A DNA stretch of 64,000 nt from Halolamina sediminis (GTDB taxonomy: Archaea; Halobacteriota; Halobacteria; Halobacteriales; Haloferacaceae), in the NCBI RefSeq assembly GCF_001282785.1, contig NZ_CVUA01000001.1, forward strand, positions 1,550,001-1,614,000. The letters are read 5' to 3'. Shown one piece after another: positions 28,653-45,443 of the stretch. Position numbers and translations under genes: made by a program. The notes beneath the pieces are model-generated. The model was not told the DNA's origin. It was given only the letters and a program-made list of their open reading frames with translations, and ran no database searches. Numbering within the stretch: the first letter of the stretch is position 1; each line of letters opens with the position of its first letter.

Positions 28653-29486
28653 TCACTGTTTCACGGATCGCTTGATGTTGTGGACCGCACACATCAGGAC
28701 GATCTCACGAAATTCGCGGTACCACGCTCGGGCACGCACCGCGTGGCCGAGCGTGCGCTTAATCGTCGAGAAGACGGTCTCAGACAGTGCTCTTTGGCCG
28801 TATAGAGACCCATCGATGCGCGCGTTATGCGCGCAATCGATGGGTCGGAACTCGCGGTGCTTGATCAGCGGTCTCACGCCCTCTTCGCGCAATTTCTTGC
28901 GCAATTGCTGCCAATCGTAGCCTTTGTCAGCGGCGAGGCTGGCAATCTCGCCCGCGTTGCGGCGGGCGAGTTGCCAGCCGATCTGCGTGTCGTGGCGCTT
29001 CTCAGTCGTACAGTGAACGTCGAGCACAGCTTGCGTTTTCGTATCAACGAGCGCAGTCGCTTTGAGCGTTTGAACGCGGTAATTCGTCCGGCGACAGTAG
29101 TGCTTGCTGGCAGTTTCGCGGTCGAAAAACGTCGCGTCCATTGCGGCGTGATCGGCGGTGTCGTGCAGCTGCGACGAAAGGCGCAGGAGCACCCGCCAGA
29201 TCTTCATCTCTAACCTATCAAACGCCTTCACAAGCGTGGAGTGATGCGGGAGATCGCCCTCTTCGAGGCCGATCTCGGCCAAAATATGCGGCATCTCGCT
29301 CAAGAGATCAAGCGCTTCACGATACGGTTTCGCCAAGTAAATCCGGAGACAGTGAAGCGAAACGACGGCGTAGTCGGCGAAGCCGCCACCCCCTTCGGGG
29401 GCGGCGACTTCGCCTCGGCCACCAACAGCATTTTTAGCTAACGTCACAGTTTTGCGAGTGAAGCGGGAGATTTTCGACATAGGCAT
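28653..29486 (-). CDS. IS5-family transposase
   Basis: 277 residues (275 if the in-frame ATG at 29480 is used). The DDE catalytic residues are Asp117 (AMDATFF), Asp187 (AADKGYD) and Glu236 (ETVFSTIKR), the last within the Y-(2)-R-(3)-E-like region of IS5. The N-terminal half is helical (LPHHSTLVKAFDRL) as in haloarchaeal ISH relatives. It lies wholly inside the terminal repeats and appears intact. Confidence 0.93.
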   Translation of the reverse strand: MPMSKISRFTRKTVTLAKNAVGGRGEVAAPEGGGGFADYAVVSLHCLRIYLAKPYREALDLLSEMPHILAEIGLEEGDLPHHSTLVKAFDRLEMKIWRVLLRLSSQLHDTADHAAMDATFFDRETASKHYCRRTNYRVQTLKATALVDTKTQAVLDVHCTTEKRHDTQIGWQLARRNAGEIASLAADKGYDWQQLRKKLREEGVRPLIKHREFRPIDCAHNARIDGSLYGQRALSETVFSTIKRTLGHAVRARAWYREFREIVLMCAVHNIKRSVKQ

Positions 29487-29558: not shown

Positions 29559-29754
29559 ACAATAGTAATACGGGAAACAGTGTGGAAAACCATTAAGGTT
29601 AGCTATCACCTCCACTGAAGTAGGCTGTTGGGAATACGACGTAGTCTGGTAAGATTCCGCTCACAGTGCCGTGGACGCTCACGTCTTGAACAGCACCCGG
29701 AGTCATGCCGAGGAACAACCGCCCGTAGTGATCGAGAACCCACCACACTACACA

Positions 29755-30522
29755 ATGAGTACCAGCGATTCCGACGACACTGACCGACTCGAACAGTACA
29801 TCCGCGACGAGAAGGGCCATCTCGACAGTTGCGACAGCATGGTCAATCTCGCGAATTGGCTCTACGCGAACGAGTATTTCGAGACCAACGACCAAGTGGT
29901 CCCTACGAGCGATCTCAAAGAAATCCTCGGCAGCCGGCTCGAATACGGTGTAGACACGCTGCTTGATCATCTTGAGGAAATCAACGTTGTCAGCGAAGTC
30001 TCACAAGGGGGCGGTCAGTTCATTCTACATGAGCGGACCGGACGGGCGTTCTTTGACCCGGACAATGAAGAGATGCTGCCTCTCCTCGAAGAAGAAATTT
30101 CGCGATTCCTTAAGGACCTGCGGGAACAACAAAGCCGAGCGCTGGAATCCGAAGACACCGGCGACGACGAGACTCAGTCAGTCGCTGACGGTGGAAAACT
30201 CGAAGGGGCAGGCCCGGATGAGCCCGATGAGACGGAGGCTGATGACGAGGAAGACGCCGACGATGTGCCGACAAAGTTTCGCGCAGTCGCCTCCGCGGCA
30301 CTAGATGCCGAGCAACCGCTCGAAGACGCGCTTACAAACCCCACAGACCATATCGAGCAGATCGTCCGGTTCGACGACGTGGTTACAGCAATCACCGAGA
30401 GCGACGAAGTGAGTCGAAGGTGTCCGTACGAGCCGATGGGCTGGCGCAACGCTGCGAACAAGTGGGTGCTGACCACGACAGCAAAAGCACGTAAGGAAAA
30501 CGAATCACTATCGGGGTATTGA
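29755..30522 (+). CDS. Winged-helix-like island protein with probable C-terminal frameshift
   Basis: 255 residues from ATG 29755 (a GTG at 29671 would add 28 residues). Residues about 10-90 look like a winged helix-turn-helix: LANWLY, VPTSDLKEIL, VDTLLDHLEEINVVSEV and a beta wing. An Asp/Glu-rich linker (about 135-180) leads to a C-terminal domain. No family recognised. The frame ends TATTGA after a GGGG run (30513-30516); dropping one G continues the protein for about 43 residues (IEDLSRRDLLDNARKQLEN...) to a TAA at 30644-30646, only 22 bp before the next gene. A true frameshift or a sequencing indel is likely. Confidence 0.68.
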   Translation: MSTSDSDDTDRLEQYIRDEKGHLDSCDSMVNLANWLYANEYFETNDQVVPTSDLKEILGSRLEYGVDTLLDHLEEINVVSEVSQGGGQFILHERTGRAFFDPDNEEMLPLLEEEISRFLKDLREQQSRALESEDTGDDETQSVADGGKLEGAGPDEPDETEADDEEDADDVPTKFRAVASAALDAEQPLEDALTNPTDHIEQIVRFDDVVTAITESDEVSRRCPYEPMGWRNAANKWVLTTTAKARKENESLSGY

Positions 30523-30668: not shown

Positions 30669-32069
30669 TTATCTGGGTGGGGTGATGTCGGTGTCGTAGA
30701 CGTCGTCGACAGCATCGGCGTAAATGCCGTCGAGGATCGAGAGTAGTTCCGGGTTTTCGACGACTAAGTCACGGAACGCGTCTTCGAGTGCAGCGATGTA
30801 GGCTGTGAAGAAGTCATCGTGGTCGTCAGGGGTGATGTCGTACGTCGCAGCGATCATGTTCCGTTTATTCCCGGTGCGATTGGCAGTCGCCGGGAGAACG
30901 GTGTCGATAGCATCGGCCTGTGCATTGAACTTCTCGTACACCGCGTCGATGAAGGATTGGTCGTTGGCGCCCATGTTTCGGAAGTAGAGGGTGAGCGTGT
31001 TGTCTCGAAGGGCTTGGTCGCGGTCGTTTTCGAGTCGGTGGTGGAATCCGATTCTGGCGTCGTTGCGGTCGTCGGGGCGCTCGTGGCGAATGTCGGTGAG
31101 GTCATCGGTGTGTCGCCACCACCCGTGCTTGAACAGCATCCCCCAGTCGGAACTGGTTGATCGGAACCACCAGTTCCCGACGCCGTCGGTCGGGCACTCG
31201 AACTGGACGTGGTAGTCTGTGTCCGAGAGGATTGCCCCTGAGCCGTTCGATGCAAGGCGATTCGCAAGTCGGGTTGGCCAGTTATGCGCGAACGTCTCCC
31301 ACTGGTCTTCGAACGTCTCGGTCACGTCGGTGATGGTCTCGTAGTGGTCGAGGTACAGTTCGACTTTCTCGGCAACGTTGTCTGTTGGGTCGGACATGCC
31401 TGCGATGGATCGGATGTCGTCGGCGAATTCGTAGAGCTGTACGACCGTTCGCTGCGGGTACCGTGGTGCGGTGGCGACGATGAAGTCGGTCAGGACGGAG
31501 TCGACGAACTTCGTCCACGTCCAGTTGCTGAATTCCGAGTCGTTCGCGTCCGGGCGGTCGGCTTGATGCAGATAGAGGTAGTACGCGCCAGACTCGTAGT
31601 CGTCCTTCGGAACATCGTCGATGTGCGTGACGTCCTGGCGATAGAACTCCGTCTGCGTGTCCTCCGCAGAGAATTTGAGTTCGACCAGAAGGAACCACTC
31701 GTTCGGAACCTGGACGACCAAGTCGACAAAGCCTGACGACACTGGGTCTCCGTCAACTTGCTCCGTGAGCCGTACTTGGTCGTCAACGACGACATCCGAG
31801 AGATCATGGAGATCCTCATCGAACCCACACGTGTCGGGCAAGCCATTGAGGAACGCGCGGAGAAATTCCTCCTCCATTCCGTGCGGTTGGTCCGGATCAA
31901 GGAAGTACGCGAACAACCGGTTGATATACACCTCGGCTTTCTGCTGTGACCCCAGGGAGTATTCGATCACGTCCATCAGTGACCGAGGTGTTTCAGGAAC
32001 GGCGGTGAGTTGCTCCCACCGGCGTGTCAACGTCTCCAACTCACGTCGTAATTCGTTTGTCTCGTTCAT
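30669..32069 (-). CDS. PD-(D/E)XK nuclease-superfamily protein (PF14281-like)
   Basis: 466 residues. NRLFAYFLDPDQPHGMEEEF (about 50-69) is the helix that precedes the nuclease core in this family, and the core residues are Asp116 (GFVDLVV), Glu130 and Lys132 (VELKF), followed by a Gln/Tyr helix. The C-terminal two thirds is rich in Trp and Asp and probably recognises substrate. Such proteins sit in defence islands, but no partner is proven. ATG 32069 is chosen over an upstream in-frame ATG at 32141. It is divergent from the helicase operon, so a shared promoter region lies at 32070-32189. Confidence 0.82.
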   Translation of the reverse strand: MNETNELRRELETLTRRWEQLTAVPETPRSLMDVIEYSLGSQQKAEVYINRLFAYFLDPDQPHGMEEEFLRAFLNGLPDTCGFDEDLHDLSDVVVDDQVRLTEQVDGDPVSSGFVDLVVQVPNEWFLLVELKFSAEDTQTEFYRQDVTHIDDVPKDDYESGAYYLYLHQADRPDANDSEFSNWTWTKFVDSVLTDFIVATAPRYPQRTVVQLYEFADDIRSIAGMSDPTDNVAEKVELYLDHYETITDVTETFEDQWETFAHNWPTRLANRLASNGSGAILSDTDYHVQFECPTDGVGNWWFRSTSSDWGMLFKHGWWRHTDDLTDIRHERPDDRNDARIGFHHRLENDRDQALRDNTLTLYFRNMGANDQSFIDAVYEKFNAQADAIDTVLPATANRTGNKRNMIAATYDITPDDHDDFFTAYIAALEDAFRDLVVENPELLSILDGIYADAVDDVYDTDITPPR

Positions 32070-32189
32070 CCCATCATCCAGAGATACATTTCGGCTGGTG
32101 TATAGGCGCTTTGGCGACAAACTCGGATGAAACGACTCCACTAGTCGAAAAGAGACGACTCGAACATGGTAGACGGGAACAGGCTTATC

Positions 32190-34298
32190 ATGACACCTCT
32201 CAACTGTTTTGACCGTCCGAGGTTCGATTACGTGTCTCTATCTACTGCTGATCGGCGATTCGACGGGACCTTAGTCACGACACCGTTCGGCGCGGATAAC
32301 GTCGAACGGACAGCGCGGGAGGAATACCGAACGCTCCTCGACGAACACGATTCTGAGGATGTGCTCGTCGTCACGGGTGCGCCGACGAGTACCGACACGT
32401 TCCAGGGGGCGTTAGGTGCGGAGCTTCCGGGCGCGGCGACACCGTACGTAACGTCGCTTGTGGTGCATGCGACGGATGTCCTCAATCAGACCGATGACCG
32501 CGTCATCCTTTCTGACGCGCTGCGACGTGAACTCCTCCACCGGTTCCTGGAAGATTACGAGTGGGAAACGGAGTACCTCCAGCGGGCGTCTGCGCAGCCG
32601 TCGTTCATCGAGGACGTGGATGCGGTGATGGGTACGATCTCTTGGCAAATGACCACGCCAGACGAGACACCGGAGCTCCGAGACATCACGGCTGCGCTTG
32701 ACGCGTTCCACGAGTGGCTCGCCGAGCACGACCACATGGAGCGCGGGCAACTGATTTCCGACGCACTTGATGTCCTCTCTGGGGATGCACGCGAGGATGT
32801 CGTGGATTTCGAGGCGGTGCTGGCAGTCGAGTTCGAGGAGTTCTTTCTCCTCGACCGCGCATACCTCGACGCGCTCGCCGGGGACGGTGACCTGGTCTGT
32901 ATCGCGGAAGAGAACGCGAGTGTGCGACGGACGTGGGTCGAGCCGGGGCCGGTGACGGAGTACGTGTCGTTCAGTGAGTCCCGGCGCGGGGTGTCGGTGA
33001 CGCCGTCGTCGCGGCCAGCGGCCACGGCAGCCTACTTCGCTGAAGCAACAGTACCGGAAGACCCGGAATCAGGGTCGGTGTCCGTCCTTGCGACGGCTGC
33101 CAGTGACGAGCAACTCGCCGAGGTAGCGAACGAGATCGAGGAGCTTGTCGGGCAGCGGGACTGGGGGTACGACGACGTCGCCGTGGCCACGAAGCAAAGT
33201 GGGGGGACGGTGACGGACGCGATCGAGGCGCTTGAACGCGCAGGAGTGCCAGCGGAATCGACGACTGTGACGGGGTTCGGTGACGACCCGGCGATCCGGG
33301 AGCTCCTTGCTGTCGTTCGATATCTCGCAGCCGACGAGGAGGATGAGGCTGTAGTGTCGGATCGCGGGCCGGAGCTTGATCCGGAGCGTGTTGCCCGTGC
33401 TGGCGAGAGGGACAGCTTGGAGGATGCGGTTCGGTGGTGGGCGACGGATTCGGGGTTGAAGGCTCGGATCGCAGAGCGTGCGTCGCCGTTAGATGCTCGT
33501 GCACAGTTTGGGAATGTGCGGCGGGCGTTCCGCATGGCGGCGTTCCTTGAAGATACTGAGTTCGTGGACGCGTCGTGGGCGTCGTACCGGGAGATGCTGG
33601 AACGCGCTCACGAGTACGCGCCTCAGCAGAACCAGACGAGCGCGACGGATTTCGACGGCGGTGTCCGGATCGATCACTTGCAAGCGATCAAGAACGAGTC
33701 GTTCCGCGCGGTGTTTCTCGTGAATCTCGTGGACAGTGAGTACCCGGGCGACGCGTTCCTGACGCGGTTGTTCCCCACAGAGCGGGTCGCGTCGATGCCG
33801 GACTACCCCGGTGTGACGGACCTTGAGGCAGCGGATGTGGATGCGACGTTCCCGACGACGTCCACAGCTTCGAGCCGGCCGTTCGCACGGTATCACACGG
33901 AGCACGCGCGGCGTCGCCTCGCAATCGGGGCTGGTGCGGCGACAGAGCGACTGTACTGTTGCCTGTACGAGTATGAGGACACGGCGCTCGAAGAGCGTGC
34001 GCAGGCGTCGCGGTTCCTCACGGCCGCATACGACGACGTGCCGTGGGTGACAGACGCCGATGATCCGGCGATTACGAGCGAGCAAGCAGCGGAGGAGTAT
34101 CTACTGTCACGGGTCGATGACGCACTGGCAGAGGTGCGGCGCGCGAACAGTCAGGACGTGACGGTGTCGCTTGACGAGGTGGAGGGAGAGCTCGGAGAGA
34201 TCCAAGCGTTGCTGGATGCGAGTGGGGAGCGGGGTGACGCGCTTCGAAAGGCGTTGCGTGCGCGTGTTGAACTGGCGAACGGGGAGGTGCGGCGATGA
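32190..34298 (+). CDS. AddB/RecB-like helicase-related protein lacking Walker A
   Basis: 702 residues from ATG 32190; an in-frame ATG at 32166 would give 710. It begins a three-gene operon of overlapping ORFs. The architecture resembles the inactivated SF1 helicase half of AddB: a P-loop-like spot reads VVTGAPTSTDTF with no GKT, while the late region keeps SF1-like features (VRIDHLQAIKNESFRAVFLVNLVDSEYPGD, with a motif V-like HLQAIK...VFLV, and HTEHARRRLAIGAGAATERLYCC, resembling motif VI). It carries no nuclease residues; those are on the next gene. Probably the recognition or scaffold subunit of a DNA end-processing complex. Confidence 0.72.
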   Translation: MTPLNCFDRPRFDYVSLSTADRRFDGTLVTTPFGADNVERTAREEYRTLLDEHDSEDVLVVTGAPTSTDTFQGALGAELPGAATPYVTSLVVHATDVLNQTDDRVILSDALRRELLHRFLEDYEWETEYLQRASAQPSFIEDVDAVMGTISWQMTTPDETPELRDITAALDAFHEWLAEHDHMERGQLISDALDVLSGDAREDVVDFEAVLAVEFEEFFLLDRAYLDALAGDGDLVCIAEENASVRRTWVEPGPVTEYVSFSESRRGVSVTPSSRPAATAAYFAEATVPEDPESGSVSVLATAASDEQLAEVANEIEELVGQRDWGYDDVAVATKQSGGTVTDAIEALERAGVPAESTTVTGFGDDPAIRELLAVVRYLAADEEDEAVVSDRGPELDPERVARAGERDSLEDAVRWWATDSGLKARIAERASPLDARAQFGNVRRAFRMAAFLEDTEFVDASWASYREMLERAHEYAPQQNQTSATDFDGGVRIDHLQAIKNESFRAVFLVNLVDSEYPGDAFLTRLFPTERVASMPDYPGVTDLEAADVDATFPTTSTASSRPFARYHTEHARRRLAIGAGAATERLYCCLYEYEDTALEERAQASRFLTAAYDDVPWVTDADDPAITSEQAAEEYLLSRVDDALAEVRRANSQDVTVSLDEVEGELGEIQALLDASGERGDALRKALRARVELANGEVRR

Positions 34299-35200
34299 GC
34301 GGGCGAGCCTTGTCCCCGTCGCGGTTGGCGACGTACGCGGCGTGCCCGCGGCAGTACGAGTACGGGTACGTCCAGGACGTGAACACGCCGGACCGGACAG
34401 AACTGTACTTGAACCAAGGATCGATGTACCACGAAGTGATTGAGGACGTCTGCGAGGCGACATCGCCTGAAGATGCAGCAGAGACGATTCATGCGCGGGC
34501 GATGGAGACGTTCACGGCGAAGTGGGACGAGCACACGGTCCGGGAAGATTACGAGTCCACCGCGCATAGGGAGTACCAGCGCCGGGAGAACCGAGCAGCA
34601 ATCGAGGCGTTCTTCGCACCGGACGGTGGTGACGGGATCGAACACGCACGTCGATCCGTTGCGACTGAGTGCTGGGTCGAGTGTGAGCGCGACGGGCGGG
34701 CACTGCACGGGAAAGCTGACAACGTCATCCGAACCGACGACGGGCTCCACGTGTTCGACTACAAACGGAATACGCGGGGCGTCATCTCCTCTGGGACCGC
34801 CGAGTACCTCGCCGATCACCGCGACGGCGACGCGCACGAGCCGAAACGCGTGCGGAACGCGTTCCAGACGGCGACGTACGTCGAGGGCGTGAAGAACGAA
34901 CCGTTCTACGAGGAGGGGATGGAGGTCCGGTTCAGTTTCTACGGCCTGCTCAACAGCACGTCGTTCGAAAGCACTTCCACTGGGTACGAGGTGTCTGCCC
35001 GCGGGTATCCGCGGGAAACCACGGGAATCTACGAAGAGCACTACGACACGATTTGGGCACTCATCCGCGAGGCTCACGACGGGATTACTGGCGAGGCGTT
35101 CGAGCCTGCCCCGTTCGACCTGATCAACGAGGAAGCATGCCCGGACTGCGACTACCGAGAGATGTGCGCTGACCGCCTGTCCACGGAGGTGCAGCGATGA
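34295..35200 (+). CDS. Stand-alone RecB/Cas4-type Fe-S nuclease
   Basis: 301 residues. It has the complete RecB-type core: His46 (SMYHEVIE), Asp142 (GKADNVI), and Asp155-Tyr-Lys157 (VFDYKRN). Four cysteines are placed as in AddB and Cas4 iron-sulfur nucleases: Cys17 (ACPRQYEYGY) and Cys282, Cys285, Cys291 (CPDCDYREMC). The ATG overlaps the stop of the helicase-like gene and its stop overlaps the UvrD gene, each by 4 bp. It looks like the AddB nuclease domain made as a separate protein. Confidence 0.88.
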   Translation: MSGRALSPSRLATYAACPRQYEYGYVQDVNTPDRTELYLNQGSMYHEVIEDVCEATSPEDAAETIHARAMETFTAKWDEHTVREDYESTAHREYQRRENRAAIEAFFAPDGGDGIEHARRSVATECWVECERDGRALHGKADNVIRTDDGLHVFDYKRNTRGVISSGTAEYLADHRDGDAHEPKRVRNAFQTATYVEGVKNEPFYEEGMEVRFSFYGLLNSTSFESTSTGYEVSARGYPRETTGIYEEHYDTIWALIREAHDGITGEAFEPAPFDLINEEACPDCDYREMCADRLSTEVQR

Positions 35201-38200
35201 GCGGCGACACCGAGTACCCGTCGTGGTACCCGGAACCGAAGGAAGACGTCTCCCCGGAACCCCAACAGCAGGCGATCATCGACGCCGATGCGTATCCGAT
35301 GCGCGTACTGGCTGGCGCAGGGACGGGGAAGACGTTCACGATGGTGCGGAAAATCGAGCACCTCATCGACGAGGAAGGCGTCTCTCCGGATCGGATTCTT
35401 GCGTTGACGTTCACGAACAACGCGGCGGACTCGATGCGAGAGAAACTCAACGCGAAACTCGGCGCGGCCGGGTACGACATCGACGCGTACACGTACCACT
35501 CCATCTGTAACGAGATCCTCACCGACTACGCGTACGAAGCCGGTATCGACCCGGACTTCGAGGTCGCCACCGACGCCGAGAAGTACGCCATCGTGCTGGA
35601 TGTGCTGGACGACATCGAGTACCGGGCTGTGAAACCCAACGTGTACGGCGGTGACGGGTACGCGTCCGGCGCGGCGTCGAAGCTGCTGAACTTCATCGGG
35701 TCGATGAAACGCAGCGGCATCACGCCCGAGGACATCGATGCGTTCCTCGGGCCTGCTGACCGCGTGCACGACCTCGCCGACCTCCCGGAGCGTGTCAAGT
35801 CGATTGCCAGCGACCATCTAAATGGCCGGTCCGTGTCCAGCGTGCTGGATTCGCTCCCAGACGCGCGTGCCGACCTCGTCGCCGAACGCGACGCGCTCGG
35901 GACGGACGGTATTGAGGCCAGTGTACGCGACTTCCTCGACCGGCTCGTCAAGCTTTGCGACGCACTCGAAGCGGCATTCGAAGCACACCAGTCCGGTGAT
36001 CGGGAACTGCCGGACAACGCGTACAAACTCCCGAAGTACTTGCTCGGCGGGTACGCAAGTGGTGCGCCGACAGGTATCCCAGGTGATCTCAACCTCGAAC
36101 TCACCGATCATCTCGACTCGTTCGTCTCGGACTGCCTCACCGCGCGTGACCTGACGGCTGGATACGCGGCGTACGAGCGTGAACTCGATGAGCGGAACCT
36201 GATAGACTTCGATGGCCTCGTCGTTGAGACGGCCGCACTGATGGATTCGCCGGTCGGCGAGGAGATCGCTGACCGGTGGGATTACGTGTTCTGTGACGAG
36301 TTCCAGGACACAGATCGGCTGCAGTTCGACCTCGTCACGTCGCTAGTCACCGACGACAACCTGTTCGTCGTTGGTGACGATGACCAGGCGATCTACGAGT
36401 GGCGCGGCGCGCACGTCGCCAACATCACCGACGAACTCGACCGGGCCTTCGACGCGCTGTCCGACGAACCCTTAGAGGAGAACTTCCGCTCCCGACAGCC
36501 GATCCTCGACCTGGCGAACGAAGCAATACAGAAACTCGACCACCGCGAACGCCACAAGACACTGAAACGCGTCGATGAACCTGCGTACGACGGGGACACC
36601 GTTGCTACCGTGGAACTGCCGGAGGAAGACGACGCGGATGGTGCGTCTCAACTTCGCACTGTCGTGCAGAACCTGTTGAGCGGTGCAGCAGACAACCTTG
36701 ACCAGGCGTACGATCCGGGCGATATCGCGTTACTCGTTCGGAAGAACGACCACGCGACGCCGGTCATTGAGGAATTCGAGGATGCCGGAATCCCGTATCA
36801 GGTTGCTGGTGATCTGGCCACGGAATCAGTTGGGGTCGGAACCGTCACCGCTTACCTGAAGGCGCTCGCACGACTCGACGACGAAGTCAGTTGGAACCGC
36901 GTCCTCTTGATGCGGTACCGACTGTGCGACGCCGATCTCCGCAGCCTCAACGCGGGCGACGAGCCACTCGTGGATACACTGCGGGAGACGCCGCTCGACG
37001 AGTTTGAAGAACCTGACCGTGTCGCCGAGGCCCGCGAACACGTGACGGAACTCCTCGAACTTCGGAACTCGGCATCACTCAGCCACTTGTACCGCGAACT
37101 TTCGGACATCACGAACATTGAGTGGTACCTGACCGAGCAGGAACGCCGTGACCTCGCCCAGCTGGAGGACGTCATCGAACAGTACGGGGACAGTACGGTC
37201 CAACCGCCGCTCACCCCGGAGTTCATCGACTCGCTCGAACACTACGACTCACTGTTCGACGAGAGCGGCTCCTCCCCGACGAGCCAGCCGGATGTCGCCG
37301 ACGACGCGGTCAACGTCACGACCATCCACAAGAGCAAGGGCCTGGATTTCCCGGTCGTCCTCATCCCGCAGATCACGGCCGACGAGTGGGCACCGAGTTC
37401 ACGCACCTACGACGCGTTCGAAACGAGCCTGTCCGACGGGCCGGAGACGGCGTTCGCCGACGACTTCGTCGAGCGTGACGCGCGTGAAACCCGGCGCGTG
37501 TTCCACGTCGGAATCACTCGCGCGGAAGATGTCCTCGTCCTCCAGGGCGGTTCCGATGACGACGACGATGCTGCGGACGTGCACCCGATTTCAGAGGCCG
37601 TCGATGAGGTTCTGCCACCTCGGATCCCGTGGCAGCCAGCGCGCGGGCAGCTCCCGCTCTGGACTGATGTGCAGGAGTGTCTCCCGGATGACGCCGGAGA
37701 CTGGACTGATACGCTGGCGAGTGAGACTGTCGGGCACATTGGCGGGAGCATCAATCACGAGGGGGAAGAACTCGCGGTTGAGCAGGCACGCGACCGCGTG
37801 GTCGATCTCGCAACAGCCACCCTGAACGGCGACCTCTCTCCGAGTACCGAGTTGGAGACACTTCAGGTTTCGTCGTTGACCGGACCGTCGGCACCGTCGC
37901 CGTCGCTCTCACACAGCTACACGTCACTGGCAGCCTACGAAGAATGCCCGCGCAGTCACTATCTGGACTACGTGGTCAACGCGTTCCCCGATCACCGGGA
38001 GGCCACGAGTGATGCGGGAAGCGGGGTGTCTCAACGTGAGATCGGCGTGCTGTTCCACGACACTGCAGAACAAGCTGGGAAGCAGGGCGTGGACCAGCAG
38101 GAGGGGTGGGACGAGATTTGCGAGCGGCTCGCCAGTCAGCGCCGAGCTGAAGACGCGCTCCCGGCGGCGAAACAGTGTATCGACCGGTACTTCGAGTTAG

Positions 38201-38649
38201 ACCTCCCTGATTACGATATCATCGACGCAGAGCGAGAGTTCGAACTCGACATCGACGGGCACGAACTCGTCGGGTACATCGACGCCGTGTATCGAACGCC
38301 GGACGACGAGCTTCTCGTCATCGACTACAAGGCGACCGAACGGCACCGCGACTTGGAGGACGATAAGCAACTCCCGATCTACCTGTTAGCGTGCCGTGAC
38401 CTGTACGACGAGCCCGTTCGACGGGCGGGGTACGCCTACGTCGGCGATATCGGACCGAAGGTTGAGACGCGAACGTTCAACGCCGACGAGCTAGAAGCGG
38501 TTAGGGACGACGTGACGGCGTCGATGAACGAGATCAGAGAGTTTTCGTTCGATCAGTATACCGACGGCGAGCATTGTCGGTGGTGCCATCATAACCAACT
38601 CGACTGCGCACCGGATTCGTTCAGGGTTGCTCCTTGGTTCGAGGAGTAA
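35197..38649 (+). CDS. UvrD/AddA-type helicase fused to a C-terminal Fe-S nuclease
   Basis: 1150 residues. SF1A helicase motifs are intact: Walker A AGAGTGKTF (39-47), LTFTNNAA, Walker B DEFQD (about 367-371), VVGDDDQAIYEWRG, HKSKGLDF (about 711) and VGITRAEDVLVL. The C-terminus (about 905-1150) is a PD-(D/E)XK nuclease: LFHDTAEQ, GYIDAVY, VIDYKAT, with an Fe-S cysteine set at Cys917 (CPRSHYLDYV), Cys1127, Cys1130 and Cys1137. The protein probably unwinds and degrades duplex DNA from ends. It is the motor of the three-gene operon. Confidence 0.93.
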   Translation: MSGDTEYPSWYPEPKEDVSPEPQQQAIIDADAYPMRVLAGAGTGKTFTMVRKIEHLIDEEGVSPDRILALTFTNNAADSMREKLNAKLGAAGYDIDAYTYHSICNEILTDYAYEAGIDPDFEVATDAEKYAIVLDVLDDIEYRAVKPNVYGGDGYASGAASKLLNFIGSMKRSGITPEDIDAFLGPADRVHDLADLPERVKSIASDHLNGRSVSSVLDSLPDARADLVAERDALGTDGIEASVRDFLDRLVKLCDALEAAFEAHQSGDRELPDNAYKLPKYLLGGYASGAPTGIPGDLNLELTDHLDSFVSDCLTARDLTAGYAAYERELDERNLIDFDGLVVETAALMDSPVGEEIADRWDYVFCDEFQDTDRLQFDLVTSLVTDDNLFVVGDDDQAIYEWRGAHVANITDELDRAFDALSDEPLEENFRSRQPILDLANEAIQKLDHRERHKTLKRVDEPAYDGDTVATVELPEEDDADGASQLRTVVQNLLSGAADNLDQAYDPGDIALLVRKNDHATPVIEEFEDAGIPYQVAGDLATESVGVGTVTAYLKALARLDDEVSWNRVLLMRYRLCDADLRSLNAGDEPLVDTLRETPLDEFEEPDRVAEAREHVTELLELRNSASLSHLYRELSDITNIEWYLTEQERRDLAQLEDVIEQYGDSTVQPPLTPEFIDSLEHYDSLFDESGSSPTSQPDVADDAVNVTTIHKSKGLDFPVVLIPQITADEWAPSSRTYDAFETSLSDGPETAFADDFVERDARETRRVFHVGITRAEDVLVLQGGSDDDDDAADVHPISEAVDEVLPPRIPWQPARGQLPLWTDVQECLPDDAGDWTDTLASETVGHIGGSINHEGEELAVEQARDRVVDLATATLNGDLSPSTELETLQVSSLTGPSAPSPSLSHSYTSLAAYEECPRSHYLDYVVNAFPDHREATSDAGSGVSQREIGVLFHDTAEQAGKQGVDQQEGWDEICERLASQRRAEDALPAAKQCIDRYFELDLPDYDIIDAEREFELDIDGHELVGYIDAVYRTPDDELLVIDYKATERHRDLEDDKQLPIYLLACRDLYDEPVRRAGYAYVGDIGPKVETRTFNADELEAVRDDVTASMNEIREFSFDQYTDGEHCRWCHHNQLDCAPDSFRVAPWFEE

Positions 38650-38673: not shown

Positions 38674-38712
38674 TTTTTGACTACAACGATACCCAGATAT
38701 GGTAGTCAAAAA
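38674..38712. promoter_or_regulatory. Inverted repeat after the helicase operon
   Basis: TTTTTGACTAC (38674-38684) and GTAGTCAAAAA (38702-38712) form perfect 11-bp arms around 17 nt. The T-rich left arm follows the UvrD stop by 25 bp and could act as terminator hairpin for the operon; the pair may instead be an operator for the ATPase gene downstream. Confidence 0.5.
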
Positions 38713-38714
38713 TT

Positions 38715-38732
38715 GGGTATTCCAGAATACCC
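38715..38732. promoter_or_regulatory. 18-bp palindrome upstream of the ATPase gene
   Basis: GGGTATTCCAGAATACCC is a perfect palindrome with a 2-nt centre, 56 bp before the ATG and just upstream of a CTTATC box (38745-38750). A related half ATACCCA occurs at 38690-38696. Likely operator of a dimeric repressor; inference. Confidence 0.45.
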
Positions 38733-38787
38733 TAATCTGATCTACCTTATCGACGCTGTTATTGGGGTGGACCCGGACTGTAGGCGT

Positions 38788-40170
38788 ATGGACGGATTCG
38801 TCGACCGCGATGCGGACGTTGCGGCCCTTCAAAAACGGTACGACTCCGACGAGGCCTCACTAATCACCGTCTGGGGCCGCCGGCGTGTGGGGAAGACGGA
38901 GTTAGTCGAACACTCCATTCGTGATCGGGACGACGTCGTCTACTATCAAGCCACGGAGACGACCAAGCAGATGCAACTCGATGACTTCGTGGCGGAGGCG
39001 GCGAGAGCTTTTCCGGGTATCGAGCGGATCCGCCGCGAGTGGGAGGATGTCCTCGGTTATCTCATCGAGCAGGACGCGCTGATCGTCCTCGACGAATTCC
39101 CATTCCTGATTGAGAGTGACGAGAGCCTCCCTTCGGTCGTCCAACGACTGTGGGATCACGAGGTTGAGGGCACGAGTGCCACGCTGGTGCTTGTCGGATC
39201 ATCGATCAGCATGATGAAAGAGAAGGTGATGAGTGGCGGAAGCCCGCTTCACGGCCGGTTCGACATGCGCCTCCAGCTGGAAGAACTGCCGTTCGACGCC
39301 GCCACGGAGTTCTTCCCCGACTACGGCCCTGAGGAGACGGTGCTAACGTGGGGCGTTTTCGGCGGGACACCACACTACCTGCAGGCCGTCGACGACGACC
39401 GACCACTGGAGGAGAACATCCGGGATGCCATCCTCTCGAAACGTGGGTTCCTCCACGACGAACCCGAGTACGTACTGCGAACGGAGTTAGAGAATCCGAA
39501 CCGCTATTTCTCGATCCTGAAGGCGATCGCCGCTGGGAACGCGGCCTCGAACGAGATCGCACAGACGGCCGGCATCGACTCGGATCAGATTAGCCATTAC
39601 CTGAAGAATCTGCAGGACTTGGAGATCGTCGACCGGAAAGTACCGGTGACCGAGAATCCGGCACAATCGCGGCGCGGGCAGTACGTGTTGCAGGACGCGC
39701 TGTTCCGGTTCTGGTTCCGATTCGTCTATGGACAGGGCGACAAGTACGACCGGGCGGGCACCGACGCCTACGATGAACTGATCGAACCACACCTCGCAGA
39801 CGCAATCAGTCCGAAGTTCGAGGAACTGTGCCGAACCGCCGTGTATGACCTCTATGACGGGTATACGTTCGAGCGAGTCGGCAGCTGGTGGTATCAGGAG
39901 CAGGAGGTTGACGTGGTCGGACTGACGAGCGACGCGACGATGGTCGCCGGCGAATGCAAGTTCACCAGCCAGCCGATGGGGTACGACGTGTTGAACGATC
40001 TCGAAAGCGACGTCGAGGATATCCGCTGGACGCCACATGGCGGAAGCGATGTCGCCTACGAGTTCTGCTTGTTCTCGCGGAGCGGCTTCACCCAGAGCCT
40101 GATTGAGGCTGCGGAGGAACGGGCCGACCTCCGCCTGTTCTCGATCGAGGACATCGTCAGCGCGTTCTGA
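38788..40170 (+). CDS. Archaeal AAA ATPase with DUF234-type C-terminal nuclease-like domain
   Basis: 460 residues. Residues 1-220 form a STAND-like AAA ATPase: Walker A WGRRRVGKTE (29-38) and Walker B LIVLDEF (98-104). A winged helix follows (about 240-300, NEIAQTAGIDSDQISHYLKNL), then a DUF234-type domain whose Asp375 (VDVVG) and Glu389-Cys-Lys391 (AGECKF) fit a PD-(D/E)XK fold. Members are common in archaeal mobile and defence regions, with an unknown trigger. ATG 38788 begins the conserved FVDRDADVA; the frame extends to 38677 but would run across the palindromes. Confidence 0.88.
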   Translation: MDGFVDRDADVAALQKRYDSDEASLITVWGRRRVGKTELVEHSIRDRDDVVYYQATETTKQMQLDDFVAEAARAFPGIERIRREWEDVLGYLIEQDALIVLDEFPFLIESDESLPSVVQRLWDHEVEGTSATLVLVGSSISMMKEKVMSGGSPLHGRFDMRLQLEELPFDAATEFFPDYGPEETVLTWGVFGGTPHYLQAVDDDRPLEENIRDAILSKRGFLHDEPEYVLRTELENPNRYFSILKAIAAGNAASNEIAQTAGIDSDQISHYLKNLQDLEIVDRKVPVTENPAQSRRGQYVLQDALFRFWFRFVYGQGDKYDRAGTDAYDELIEPHLADAISPKFEELCRTAVYDLYDGYTFERVGSWWYQEQEVDVVGLTSDATMVAGECKFTSQPMGYDVLNDLESDVEDIRWTPHGGSDVAYEFCLFSRSGFTQSLIEAAEERADLRLFSIEDIVSAF

Positions 40171-40274: not shown

Positions 40275-41639
40275 ATGCCTGTGCTGGACGAGCTCTCCGG
40301 GTTCGAGTTCGAGGACGTCATCGAGGACGTCTTCCGGAATCTCGGGTACGAGAACGTCCGGCAAGCTGAACGGACGGCTGACGAGGGGCGTGACATCCTC
40401 ATGGAGGAGATCGTCGACGGTCAGCGTCGCGGGATCGTCGTCGAGTGTAAGCACACGGGGACGGTCGGCCGGCCGGTCGTGCAGAAACTGCACTCGGCGA
40501 TTGCGACGTTCGAGTTCGATGGGCCGAAACGCGGCATGGTGGTGACGACTGGCCGGTTCACGAATCCGGCTATTGAATATGCTGAGCGGCTGCATCGGAA
40601 CGACGACCCGTACCCGATCGAACTCATCGACGGTGCGGACCTTCGTGAGATCGCCGACGAAATCGGGCTTGACCTCTACAACGGCCGGATCGAAATCTTG
40701 TGCGACGAGACGCTCCGGGCGTACGATCCGGCAACGTCTGTGACTGCGCCGGTCGAGGAAGCGTTCCAAGACATCGAAAACATCGACTCATCAGAGCTTC
40801 CCACGCCGTACTCGGAAGTCACATTCCGGCCAGTCGTGGCGGTGACAGCGGACACGAACGCTGTCTTCGAGACTTCGGTCGGCGTGATTCACCGGGTCAA
40901 CGACCGGTCACGGTTCGTCGTGCATGCTGACCGCGGGCAGCCACGAACAACCTCTGAGGACGTCTCGAATCTCGTGTTGGAGAACCTCCACACGACTGTT
41001 GACCTCGATACGGATCAGTTCGAGAGCGTGTTCGATCGCGTTGAGGAGCGACGGTACGGGCAAACGCAGACTGAGTACAAAGAGTGGGCTGTCGAACGGC
41101 TCCAGGATCACCACACGACGACGGTGTCCTATACGGGGGATAACAACGTCACGTACACGAAAACCTGCGAACCGAACCGCTCTGATATCTCGGTCCAGTC
41201 CATCGAACCGGTGTACGTGCCACAAGTCCGGCACACGACGGACCTTCAGTCGTACTCGTATCCCTACGAGTATTTCGCGGCAGGGCCATCACGCGTAACA
41301 CGTGACGACGGGATCCATCAGTGTGTTCACTGTGACACAGCAGGCTCCAAGAATACCTACACGTACTGTGGGAACTGCGGCAGCATCAACTGTGACTCCC
41401 ACGTCAAAACCGAGCGGCTGGAAGAAACTCCGGTCTGCACGGGGTGCGCGGTAACCGAGCGCTTTGCGTTCAAAACGAAGTACTTCTACGATGAGACGAA
41501 TCGGGATGCGTTCCGGGAACAGTACGAGGCCATGCCGTTCTACGAGAAAGCGATGGAGAACACGCCACTGGCTGTCGGCGCGGTAGTGTTCGTCGTCATT
41601 GTACTGCTCGGTTTCTTTGCCGCTGCTGGGGGAATCTGA
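40275..41639 (+). CDS. Mrr-type restriction endonuclease with zinc ribbon and C-terminal membrane anchor
   Basis: 454 residues. The N-terminus is an Mrr_cat-type PD-(D/E)XK domain: GFEFEDVIEDVF, Asp40 (DEGRDIL), then Glu57 and Lys59 (VVECKH), and a QxxK-like VVQKLHSAI. The middle (about 130-340) is unassigned. Cysteine pairs about residues 350-400 (CVHC, CGNC, CTGC) form one or two zinc ribbons, and one hydrophobic helix lies at about 430-450. Mrr enzymes cut modified foreign DNA; a membrane-bound version could watch incoming DNA at the envelope. Monocistronic. Confidence 0.87.
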   Translation: MPVLDELSGFEFEDVIEDVFRNLGYENVRQAERTADEGRDILMEEIVDGQRRGIVVECKHTGTVGRPVVQKLHSAIATFEFDGPKRGMVVTTGRFTNPAIEYAERLHRNDDPYPIELIDGADLREIADEIGLDLYNGRIEILCDETLRAYDPATSVTAPVEEAFQDIENIDSSELPTPYSEVTFRPVVAVTADTNAVFETSVGVIHRVNDRSRFVVHADRGQPRTTSEDVSNLVLENLHTTVDLDTDQFESVFDRVEERRYGQTQTEYKEWAVERLQDHHTTTVSYTGDNNVTYTKTCEPNRSDISVQSIEPVYVPQVRHTTDLQSYSYPYEYFAAGPSRVTRDDGIHQCVHCDTAGSKNTYTYCGNCGSINCDSHVKTERLEETPVCTGCAVTERFAFKTKYFYDETNRDAFREQYEAMPFYEKAMENTPLAVGAVVFVVIVLLGFFAAAGGI

Positions 41640-45368: not shown

Positions 45369-45443
45369 TGGGCGCTGCAGGATTTGAACCCGCGACAGCT
45401 TGGTCCGAAGCCAAGTACTCTGTCCAGGCTGAGCTAAGCGCCC
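45369..45443 (-). tRNA. tRNA-Arg (anticodon TCG)
   Basis: Read on the minus strand: acceptor GGGCGCT / AGCGCCC with discriminator A, D arm TTAGCTCAGC, anticodon stem CTTGG / CCAAG with loop CTTCGGA giving anticodon TCG, and T arm with GGGTTCAAATCC. No intron and no encoded CCA. A CTTAAC box lies about 27-33 bp upstream. Its 3' end faces the island, the usual geometry for integration at tRNA genes. Confidence 0.95.

Follow-up and report, generated by a model that had tools for sequence, protein, structure and literature searches.

A haloarchaeal gene trio that probably encodes an AddAB-like complex with AddB split between two genes

The DNA analysed here (the window) is a stretch of 64,000 nucleotides from the single-contig, 2.84-Mb chromosome of the haloarchaeon Halolamina sediminis (NCBI RefSeq assembly GCF_001282785.1, contig NZ_CVUA01000001.1, positions 1,550,001 to 1,614,000 of the forward strand). 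It carries three overlapping genes on one strand, to which we refer by working labels coined in this analysis, HalB, HalN and HalA. The first of these, HalB, encodes a helicase-like protein of superfamily 1 (SF1) that lacks the sequence motifs of an ATPase, and it is the main subject of this report. All coordinates given below are those of the window unless a locus is named.

32166..34298 (+): HalB, a 710-amino-acid open frame, predicted to be an inactivated helicase subunit of SF1 subfamily A (SF1A), AddB/RecC-like; probable real start GTG 32232
34295..35200 (+): HalN, a 301-amino-acid PD-(D/E)XK nuclease (Pfam PDDEXK_1, 2e-24)
35197..38649 (+): HalA, a 1150-amino-acid UvrD-type helicase with a C-terminal PD-(D/E)XK nuclease and four conserved cysteines

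The start of HalN overlaps the stop codon of HalB by 4 bases (ATGA), and the start of HalA overlaps that of HalN in the same manner. Position 32190, from which the original prediction read HalB, is an internal ATG of the frame at 32166-34298. DNA homology to most relatives sets in at about 32253, so HalB probably begins at the GTG at 32232.

The similarity of HalB to SF1A helicases emerges most clearly when the family is considered as a whole. When PDB sequences were compared with a profile of 52 HalB proteins, the matches included UvrD1 (3.2e-9), AddB (3u44_B, 1.5e-8 over AddB residues 58-354), PcrA (3.1e-6) and AdnA (4.6e-5), and AddB was the best-scoring chain whose helicase is inactive. 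A profile of the C1 subclade returned AddB as its top match (8.2e-4). With 52 HalB proteins scanned singly, addB_Gpos was the commonest NCBIfam family (9/52 at E <= 0.01, best 4.8e-6), and Pfam scans detected UvrD_C in 11 and ADDB_N in one of the 52. The HalB protein of the window yields weak matches to addB_Gpos (TIGR02773, 0.029), where the alignment is colinear (residues 291-345 with 292-346), and to the Pfam family UvrD_C (0.066). Profile-profile comparison with hhalign also relates HalB to its own neighbour HalA (probability 97.7, E 1.4e-12, 409 columns).

A structural model of the N-terminal part of HalB (residues 28-265) was obtained with a mean predicted local distance difference test score (pLDDT) of 69.5 and a predicted template-modelling score of 0.63. 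A structural aligner matched this model to Rep/UvrD with a Z score of 14.4 and to AddB (4cej_B) with a Z score of 10.1, although its list serves as evidence of fold only, and families that it does not include are not thereby ruled out. Foldseek likewise recovered UvrD (E 1.4e-6), AddB (2.1e-4) and RecC (1w36_C, E 8.4e-3, probability 0.99). In this model, the first core domain of HalB has the SF1 fold. The original prediction had staked itself on such a fold being present in a predicted structure and had described the rest of the SF1-like layout as kept, and the PDB profile search, the profile match to HalA and the fold match of the N-terminal model all agree with that description. Its comparison with AddB and RecC was also right in kind, given the rank of AddB in the PDB search, the addB_Gpos matches and the AddAB-type character of the partner genes.

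The catalytic motifs that would be expected on this fold are largely gone. In SF1 helicases the P-loop links the first strand to the first helix, and the N-terminal model has the order strand (35-39), loop, helix (45-60), strand (66-70) and helix (73-86). The places of the motifs in HalB are as follows.

32283..32303 (+): P-loop place, residues 40-46 (PFGADNV), without Walker A; located by the model, by the offset to AddB and UvrD and by column tallies
32373..32402 (+): TGAPTSTDTF, residues 70-79, motif Ia place
32826..32840 (+): motif II place, residues 221-225 (VEFEE), with Val in place of the Walker B Asp; located by hhalign against HalA D367-D371
32904..32921 (+): motif III place, residues 247-252, AEENAS versus GDDDQA in HalA
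33681..33701 (+): motif V place, residues 506-512, with K509 retained and the next Gly lost
33909..33941 (+): motif VI place, residues 582-592, with RR582-583 retained and the arginine-finger place occupied by Ala591

The aligner sets HalB residue 33 on AddB residue 2. The AddB P-loop, which we take to lie at about residues 7-14, would then correspond to HalB residues ~38-46 (TTPFGADNV). GKT and GKS are absent from the P-loop columns of all 101 HalB relatives longer than 600 amino acids over which the motif tallies were made (4 of 105 rows were shorter and were left out), so the loss of the P-loop is old and family-wide. The original prediction had recognized this loss but had located it in TGAPTSTDTF. 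That string starts at the end of the second strand, and both the strand order and the alignment offset to AddB assign it to motif Ia and reject it as the P-loop.

Changes of the same kind extend through the other motifs. The place of the Walker B Asp is Val, Leu or Ile in 97/101 relatives, that of the motif III Gln is Ala, Ser or Gly in every sequence, and that of the motif VI Arg is Ala, Thr, Val or Ser, again without exception. Other residues of these regions are retained, including E224, R231, R582 and R583 (each in 101/101) and E225 (100/101). Because the P-loop, Walker B, motif III and motif VI residues are lost family-wide, HalB is unlikely to be an ATPase.

The partner genes, by comparison, have intact motifs in the window. 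HalA matches UvrD-helicase (1.3e-60), UvrD_C (1.5e-27) and PDDEXK_1 (1.6e-24) in Pfam, and its helicase residues K45, T46, D367, E368, Q397, R431 and R775, its nuclease residues D1029, D1043 and K1045, and its four cysteines are identical in all 32 HalA sequences compared. HalN carries Cys17 and the string CPDCDYREMC, which possibly bind an iron-sulfur cluster, together with D142, D155 and K157. No credible solved relative was found with a HalN profile.

We compiled 126 relative loci, of which 30 are short copies that in several cases share a genome with a named locus. Without exception, HalB is adjacent to HalA. A HalN gene was detected by tblastn in 92; each of the remaining 34 has an open frame of at least 300 amino acids in the gap between HalB and HalA, with the pattern C-x2-C-x5/6-C in 29 of these. 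In an alignment of 27 HalN rows, made without the 34 genes that tblastn did not detect, the four cysteines are kept in 27, 26, 27 and 27 rows. Eleven rows lack D155 and K157, and all of these are core-type loci (L085, L090, L093, L094, L097, L100, L105, L107, L110, L112 and L120) whose HalN nevertheless has the four cysteines, as if only the cluster and the fold were needed. Because these two residues are missing there, the core branch is predicted to have one working nuclease, compared with two in the mobile branches.

HalB is present in 140 of 391 Halobacteria genomes and in 109 of the 125 Natrialbaceae genomes, a distribution that is near-universal in this family and patchy across Halobacteria overall. 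None of the 5 genomes of the same genus listed in the 391-genome draw has it. In a draw of 392 genomes across the phylum, 36 had a HalB match, 30 of them Halobacteria. Two of the six matches outside Halobacteria were read and are intact PcrA-like helicase-nucleases rather than HalB; the other four are loci L130-L133. No relative was found in three scans of viral contigs with HalB profiles. A tree of 91 HalB proteins, built by a quick method and containing some long branches, places a large, mostly Natrialbaceae branch apart from mobile branches, and it groups the HalB of the window with loci from many host families, Argonaute-bearing ones included. One relative of the trio lies on a plasmid (L060). 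Near-invariant residues persist among HalB relatives at about 30% identity, and nearly all listed rows are free of internal stops.

We propose that HalA, HalN and HalB probably form an archaeal AddAB-like complex in which AddB is split between two genes and HalB is the helicase-like subunit without a motor. Homology, the loss of ATPase motifs in HalB, the intact motifs of HalA and HalN, the gene order and the gene overlaps are observed. Formation of the complex, its polarity and its division of labour are inferred by analogy with the AddAB mechanism, as set out in the parts of PMC4824097 and PMC4027173 covered here. HalA would provide one working SF1A motor and a four-cysteine nuclease, HalN, encoded by a gene of its own, would be a second nuclease of this type and the counterpart of the C-terminal half of AddB, and HalB would represent the helicase-like half of AddB without its ATPase. 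On a DNA end, HalA would load and unwind the duplex. HalB, in line with HalA, would split the two strands, guide the 3' strand, hold the nucleases in place and possibly pause at particular sequences; cleavage of the two strands would fall to HalA and HalN. Outside Natrialbaceae, the window included, the trio resembles a mobile defence module by which incoming DNA is degraded or sampled, whereas the Natrialbaceae relative, whose HalN has no catalytic residues, has the appearance of a RecBC-like repair enzyme with a housekeeping role.

Known helicase-nuclease systems offer several points of comparison. With AddAB of the Bacillus type, the trio shares an SF1A fold with a dead motor (AddB), a partner with a working motor and nuclease, a second nuclease with a cysteine cluster, and adjacent genes. 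However, the helicase-like and nuclease halves of AddB form one chain, in place of HalB and an overlapping HalN gene. Furthermore, the HalA nuclease also has four cysteines, the clade of the window lacks the latch Glu, the hosts are archaeal and the similarity is far below family cut-offs. RecC of RecBCD is, like HalB, a dead helicase subunit without Walker A, and its C-terminal domain presumably lacks catalytic residues, as does the HalN nuclease of the core branch. No RecD-like gene was noticed among the scanned neighbours, although no search aimed at RecD was made, and the direct sequence match of HalB to RecC is weak. In mycobacterial AdnAB, which combines UvrD-type motors with cysteine-cluster nucleases, both chains contain a motor as well as a nuclease. 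AdnB is similar to HalA and AdnA to part of HalB, but HalB has no nuclease domain in Pfam scans. HalA also scores against GajB models of Gabija (8.9e-64, PADLOC), but the OLD-type GajA that accompanies GajB had no match among the six other proteins scanned. The archaeal HerA-NurA system is similar by role, as a helicase-nuclease for DNA-end resection, but is made of unrelated proteins.

Several observations weigh against the proposal of an AddAB-like complex. The HalB of the window falls below all curated family cut-offs (12 bits versus 903.7 for addB_Gpos, and 13 versus 25.6 for UvrD_C), and a PDB search with a profile of 12 core HalB sequences alone gave nothing at 0.01. When E. coli RecC was compared with HalB as a single sequence by hhalign, it gave only a weak local match, over 40 columns near motif V (probability 2.5). 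A model of full-length HalB, built with 34 close relatives, is poor (pLDDT 45.9), so domains 2A and 2B are supported by sequence only. Lastly, the nearest solved relatives of HalA by score are PcrA/UvrD, followed by AdnB and after these by AddA, and the AddA nuclease presumably does not have the four cysteines found in that of HalA.

In a subset of relatives, the trio is joined to an Argonaute gene. At 10 of the 36 named loci (L031, L032, L036, L038, L039, L040, L046, L053, L055 and L058), an Argonaute of about 890 amino acids and a PLD protein, which is broken in L046, lie directly upstream of HalB on the same strand, with a divergent AAA ATPase beyond. In L053 (5151-10013 for the Argonaute-PLD stretch), the Argonaute matches Piwi (3.1e-20) and PADLOC pAgo (1081 bits), and the PLD protein matches PLDc_2 (5.4e-7). 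The ATG of HalB begins only a few bases past the PLD stop codon in the five such loci inspected. L062 and L063, both of clade B, instead have an Argonaute together with a PLD stretch downstream of the trio, and L051 has a distant Argonaute in pieces. Of the Argonaute-PLD pair, L035 and L042 keep just a C-terminal remnant of the PLD gene ahead of HalB, and the contig of L041 ends within a PLD gene. No Argonaute is present within the flanks examined, some of which are short, at 23 of the 36 named loci.

Argonaute matches occur in 65 of the 391 Halobacteria genomes, and 35 rows of the HalB search in these genomes have HalB at 75% or above. All 13 Argonautes at 86% identity or above come from genomes with HalB. 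Twelve of them lie within about 2.4 kb of HalB on the same strand, and the 13th is on another contig of a 720-contig assembly. At the usual place beside the trio, the Argonaute is truncated in genome G317 (C2:1390815-1392203) and degraded in genome G289 (C1:2389715-2390411). A separate observation concerns eight clade B loci, some of them from the same genomes, in which a protein of 375-378 amino acids is encoded beside HalA (e.g. L057:16381-17508, minus strand). It has a stretch resembling an Argonaute N-terminus and a weak match to a PolB exonuclease (0.0081), and it may replace or assist Argonaute.

The window's own genome gave no Argonaute match. In L038 and L039 the order is a PDDEXK_4 gene, a cassette of ATPase, Argonaute and PLD genes, and then HalB. 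In the window, a PDDEXK_4 gene stands directly against HalB, and DNA homology to L038 covers 30684-32123 and resumes at 32253. The window therefore appears to hold the same island as these two loci without the Argonaute cassette, which would have been either lost or never present.

A pairing of a haloarchaeal long-A Argonaute with AgaP, a PLD protein, has been published as the APAP system (PMC11442185, in the parts covered here), where the discussion mentions a helicase-encoding gene near some ago-agaP operons. We infer that the Argonaute and PLD proteins beside the trio belong to the APAP families, which were matched by description, not by alignment. The likeness is that, at the 10 loci above, HalB is directly preceded by genes for an Argonaute and for a protein whose N-terminal domain is of the PLD type; the differences are that the window has neither Ago nor AgaP, and that the parts of PMC11442185 covered do not present the trio as an AddAB-like complex. 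A group of UvrD/PD-(D/E)XK proteins is also among the Argonaute-operon proteins reported in the covered portion of PMC6299218.

The genes flanking the trio in the window include the following three.

30669..32141 (-): PDDEXK_4 nuclease-like gene at the module edge (Pfam 2.6e-7; PADLOC PDC-S26, 8.8e-7)
38677..40170 (+): ATPase_2/DUF234 protein, a neighbour of the trio in several relatives (Pfam 4.4e-23 and 2.6e-15; PADLOC PDC-S27, 1.6e-42)
40275..41639 (+): Mrr-type restriction endonuclease, an occasional neighbour of the trio (Pfam Mrr_cat, 2.2e-26)

The PDDEXK_4 and Mrr genes come and go among relatives, and we reject the idea that they are parts of one fixed system with the trio. A 283-amino-acid acidic protein (29671-30522, plus strand) beside the PDDEXK_4 gene has no Pfam, NCBIfam or PADLOC family and no tblastn match in the relative loci. 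A transposase-like gene, insertion-sequence-like by reading alone, occupies 28653-29486 (minus strand), 1.2 kb beyond the PDDEXK_4 gene, and a tRNA-Arg (tcg) gene at 45369-45443 (minus strand), about 6.7 kb downstream of HalA, is a possible edge of the island. Elsewhere, a CARF protein (about 157 amino acids) and a PIN-domain protein (about 346 amino acids) are encoded near the trio in L059, L070, L071, L072, L076 and L078, and PADLOC models classify them as a signalling-effector pair. A 1644-amino-acid protein is encoded upstream of HalB in L048, L049, L050 and L054, and the L050 copy matches PADLOC TmtA models (7.1e-124).

What the trio does could be explained in several ways. It might be a stand-alone defence in which the three proteins, with the PDDEXK_4, ATPase_2 and Mrr proteins, degrade linear or foreign DNA, while HalB acts as a structural or processivity factor that reads no sequence. 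This explanation is plausible, if somewhat short of an even chance. The neighbours match PADLOC candidate defence families, the island is seen both with and without the Argonaute cassette, and the absence of HalB from the listed same-genus genomes and the plasmid-borne relative point the same way. However, E224, E225, R231, R582 and R583 of HalB are near-invariant, perhaps beyond the needs of a scaffold, which does not decide between the readings. It is rather less than likely that the trio instead serves as a supplier of guides, unwinding and chopping invading DNA into fragments that load the adjoining Argonaute, as RecBCD does for Argonautes in E. coli. The close and recurrent linkage to Argonaute described above, whether upstream of HalB or downstream of the trio, fits such a role. 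Conversely, the genome of the window shows no Argonaute, nor do most of the named loci within the flanks examined, and the Argonaute-PLD pair of Haloarcula hispanica is active with the two genes alone, according to the portion of PMC11442185 covered. Moreover, although Argonautes in E. coli use RecBCD products, the guide biogenesis of CbAgo does not need RecBCD, as described in the covered part of PMC10269773.

The original prediction had proposed that HalB could scan for a sequence mark by which self is told apart from foreign DNA. Expressed in terms of AddB and RecC, HalB would read a short, oriented, Chi-like motif in the 3' strand and switch the complex from destruction to repair, thus sparing self DNA. 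HalB shares its fold position and partners with AddB, and the Chi site of AddB and RecC is equivalent to the single-stranded DNA track of a conventional SF1 helicase (PMC4824097, part of the text). From the same source, AddB residues F68, E129 (the latch) and F210 have been tested by mutation, and we located their counterparts in HalB by the HMMER alignment from the PDB profile search. The F210 place is Phe in 95/101 HalB proteins (F223 in the window), but Phe is also found there in working SF1 helicases (F369 of HalA). The F68 place reads Leu, Ser or Pro (L98 in the window). The latch place is Glu in 27/41 core and 6/9 C1 sequences, but it is Thr in all 38 sequences of clade A, to which the window belongs (T157). 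Beyond Natrialbaceae, a host-wide Chi is also made less likely by the patchy occurrence of the trio. We consider scanning possible but unlikely, and any search for it would be better placed in the core branch. A broader conjecture, also unlikely, joins an AddAB counterpart to the Argonaute cassette, such that end-processing feeds guides and HalB decides which strand or sequence is spared, with the diverged branch as a housekeeping resection enzyme of Natrialbaceae. By contrast, it is extremely improbable that HalB is a helicase paralogue in decay, with no role of its own. Its ATPase motifs are lost, but its broad occurrence, the near absence of internal stops, the residues that stay invariant at about 30% identity, and the constant company of HalA and a gene in the HalN place lead us to reject decay on conservation.

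We conclude that the trio is a real, conserved feature of the AddAB/RecBCD kind, for which scanning is a possible but unlikely role. The haloarchaeal Argonaute-PLD pair is already known as APAP (PMC11442185, as far as covered); new here is the reading of the trio as an AddAB-like complex with a split AddB, a description that we did not find in the open-access literature, which most subscription papers fall outside. In bacteria the scanner and the nuclease are parts of one protein; with AddB divided between two genes, and a core HalN that lacks catalytic residues, the haloarchaeal system would keep these two roles apart. Where a mobile trio lies directly beside Argonaute, as in some strains, the origin of Argonaute guides is open to test through one neighbouring gene.

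To our knowledge, enzymes of the AddAB/RecBCD type are regarded as bacterial. End resection in archaea is credited to Mre11-Rad50 and HerA-NurA. In the covered parts of two reports, HerA-NurA is described as not apparent in halophilic archaea (PMC12977600) and as not present in Haloferax volcanii (PMC7776575). Because the trio is near-universal in Natrialbaceae and HerA-NurA is reported not to be apparent in halophiles, it is a concrete candidate for the missing resection enzyme of this family.

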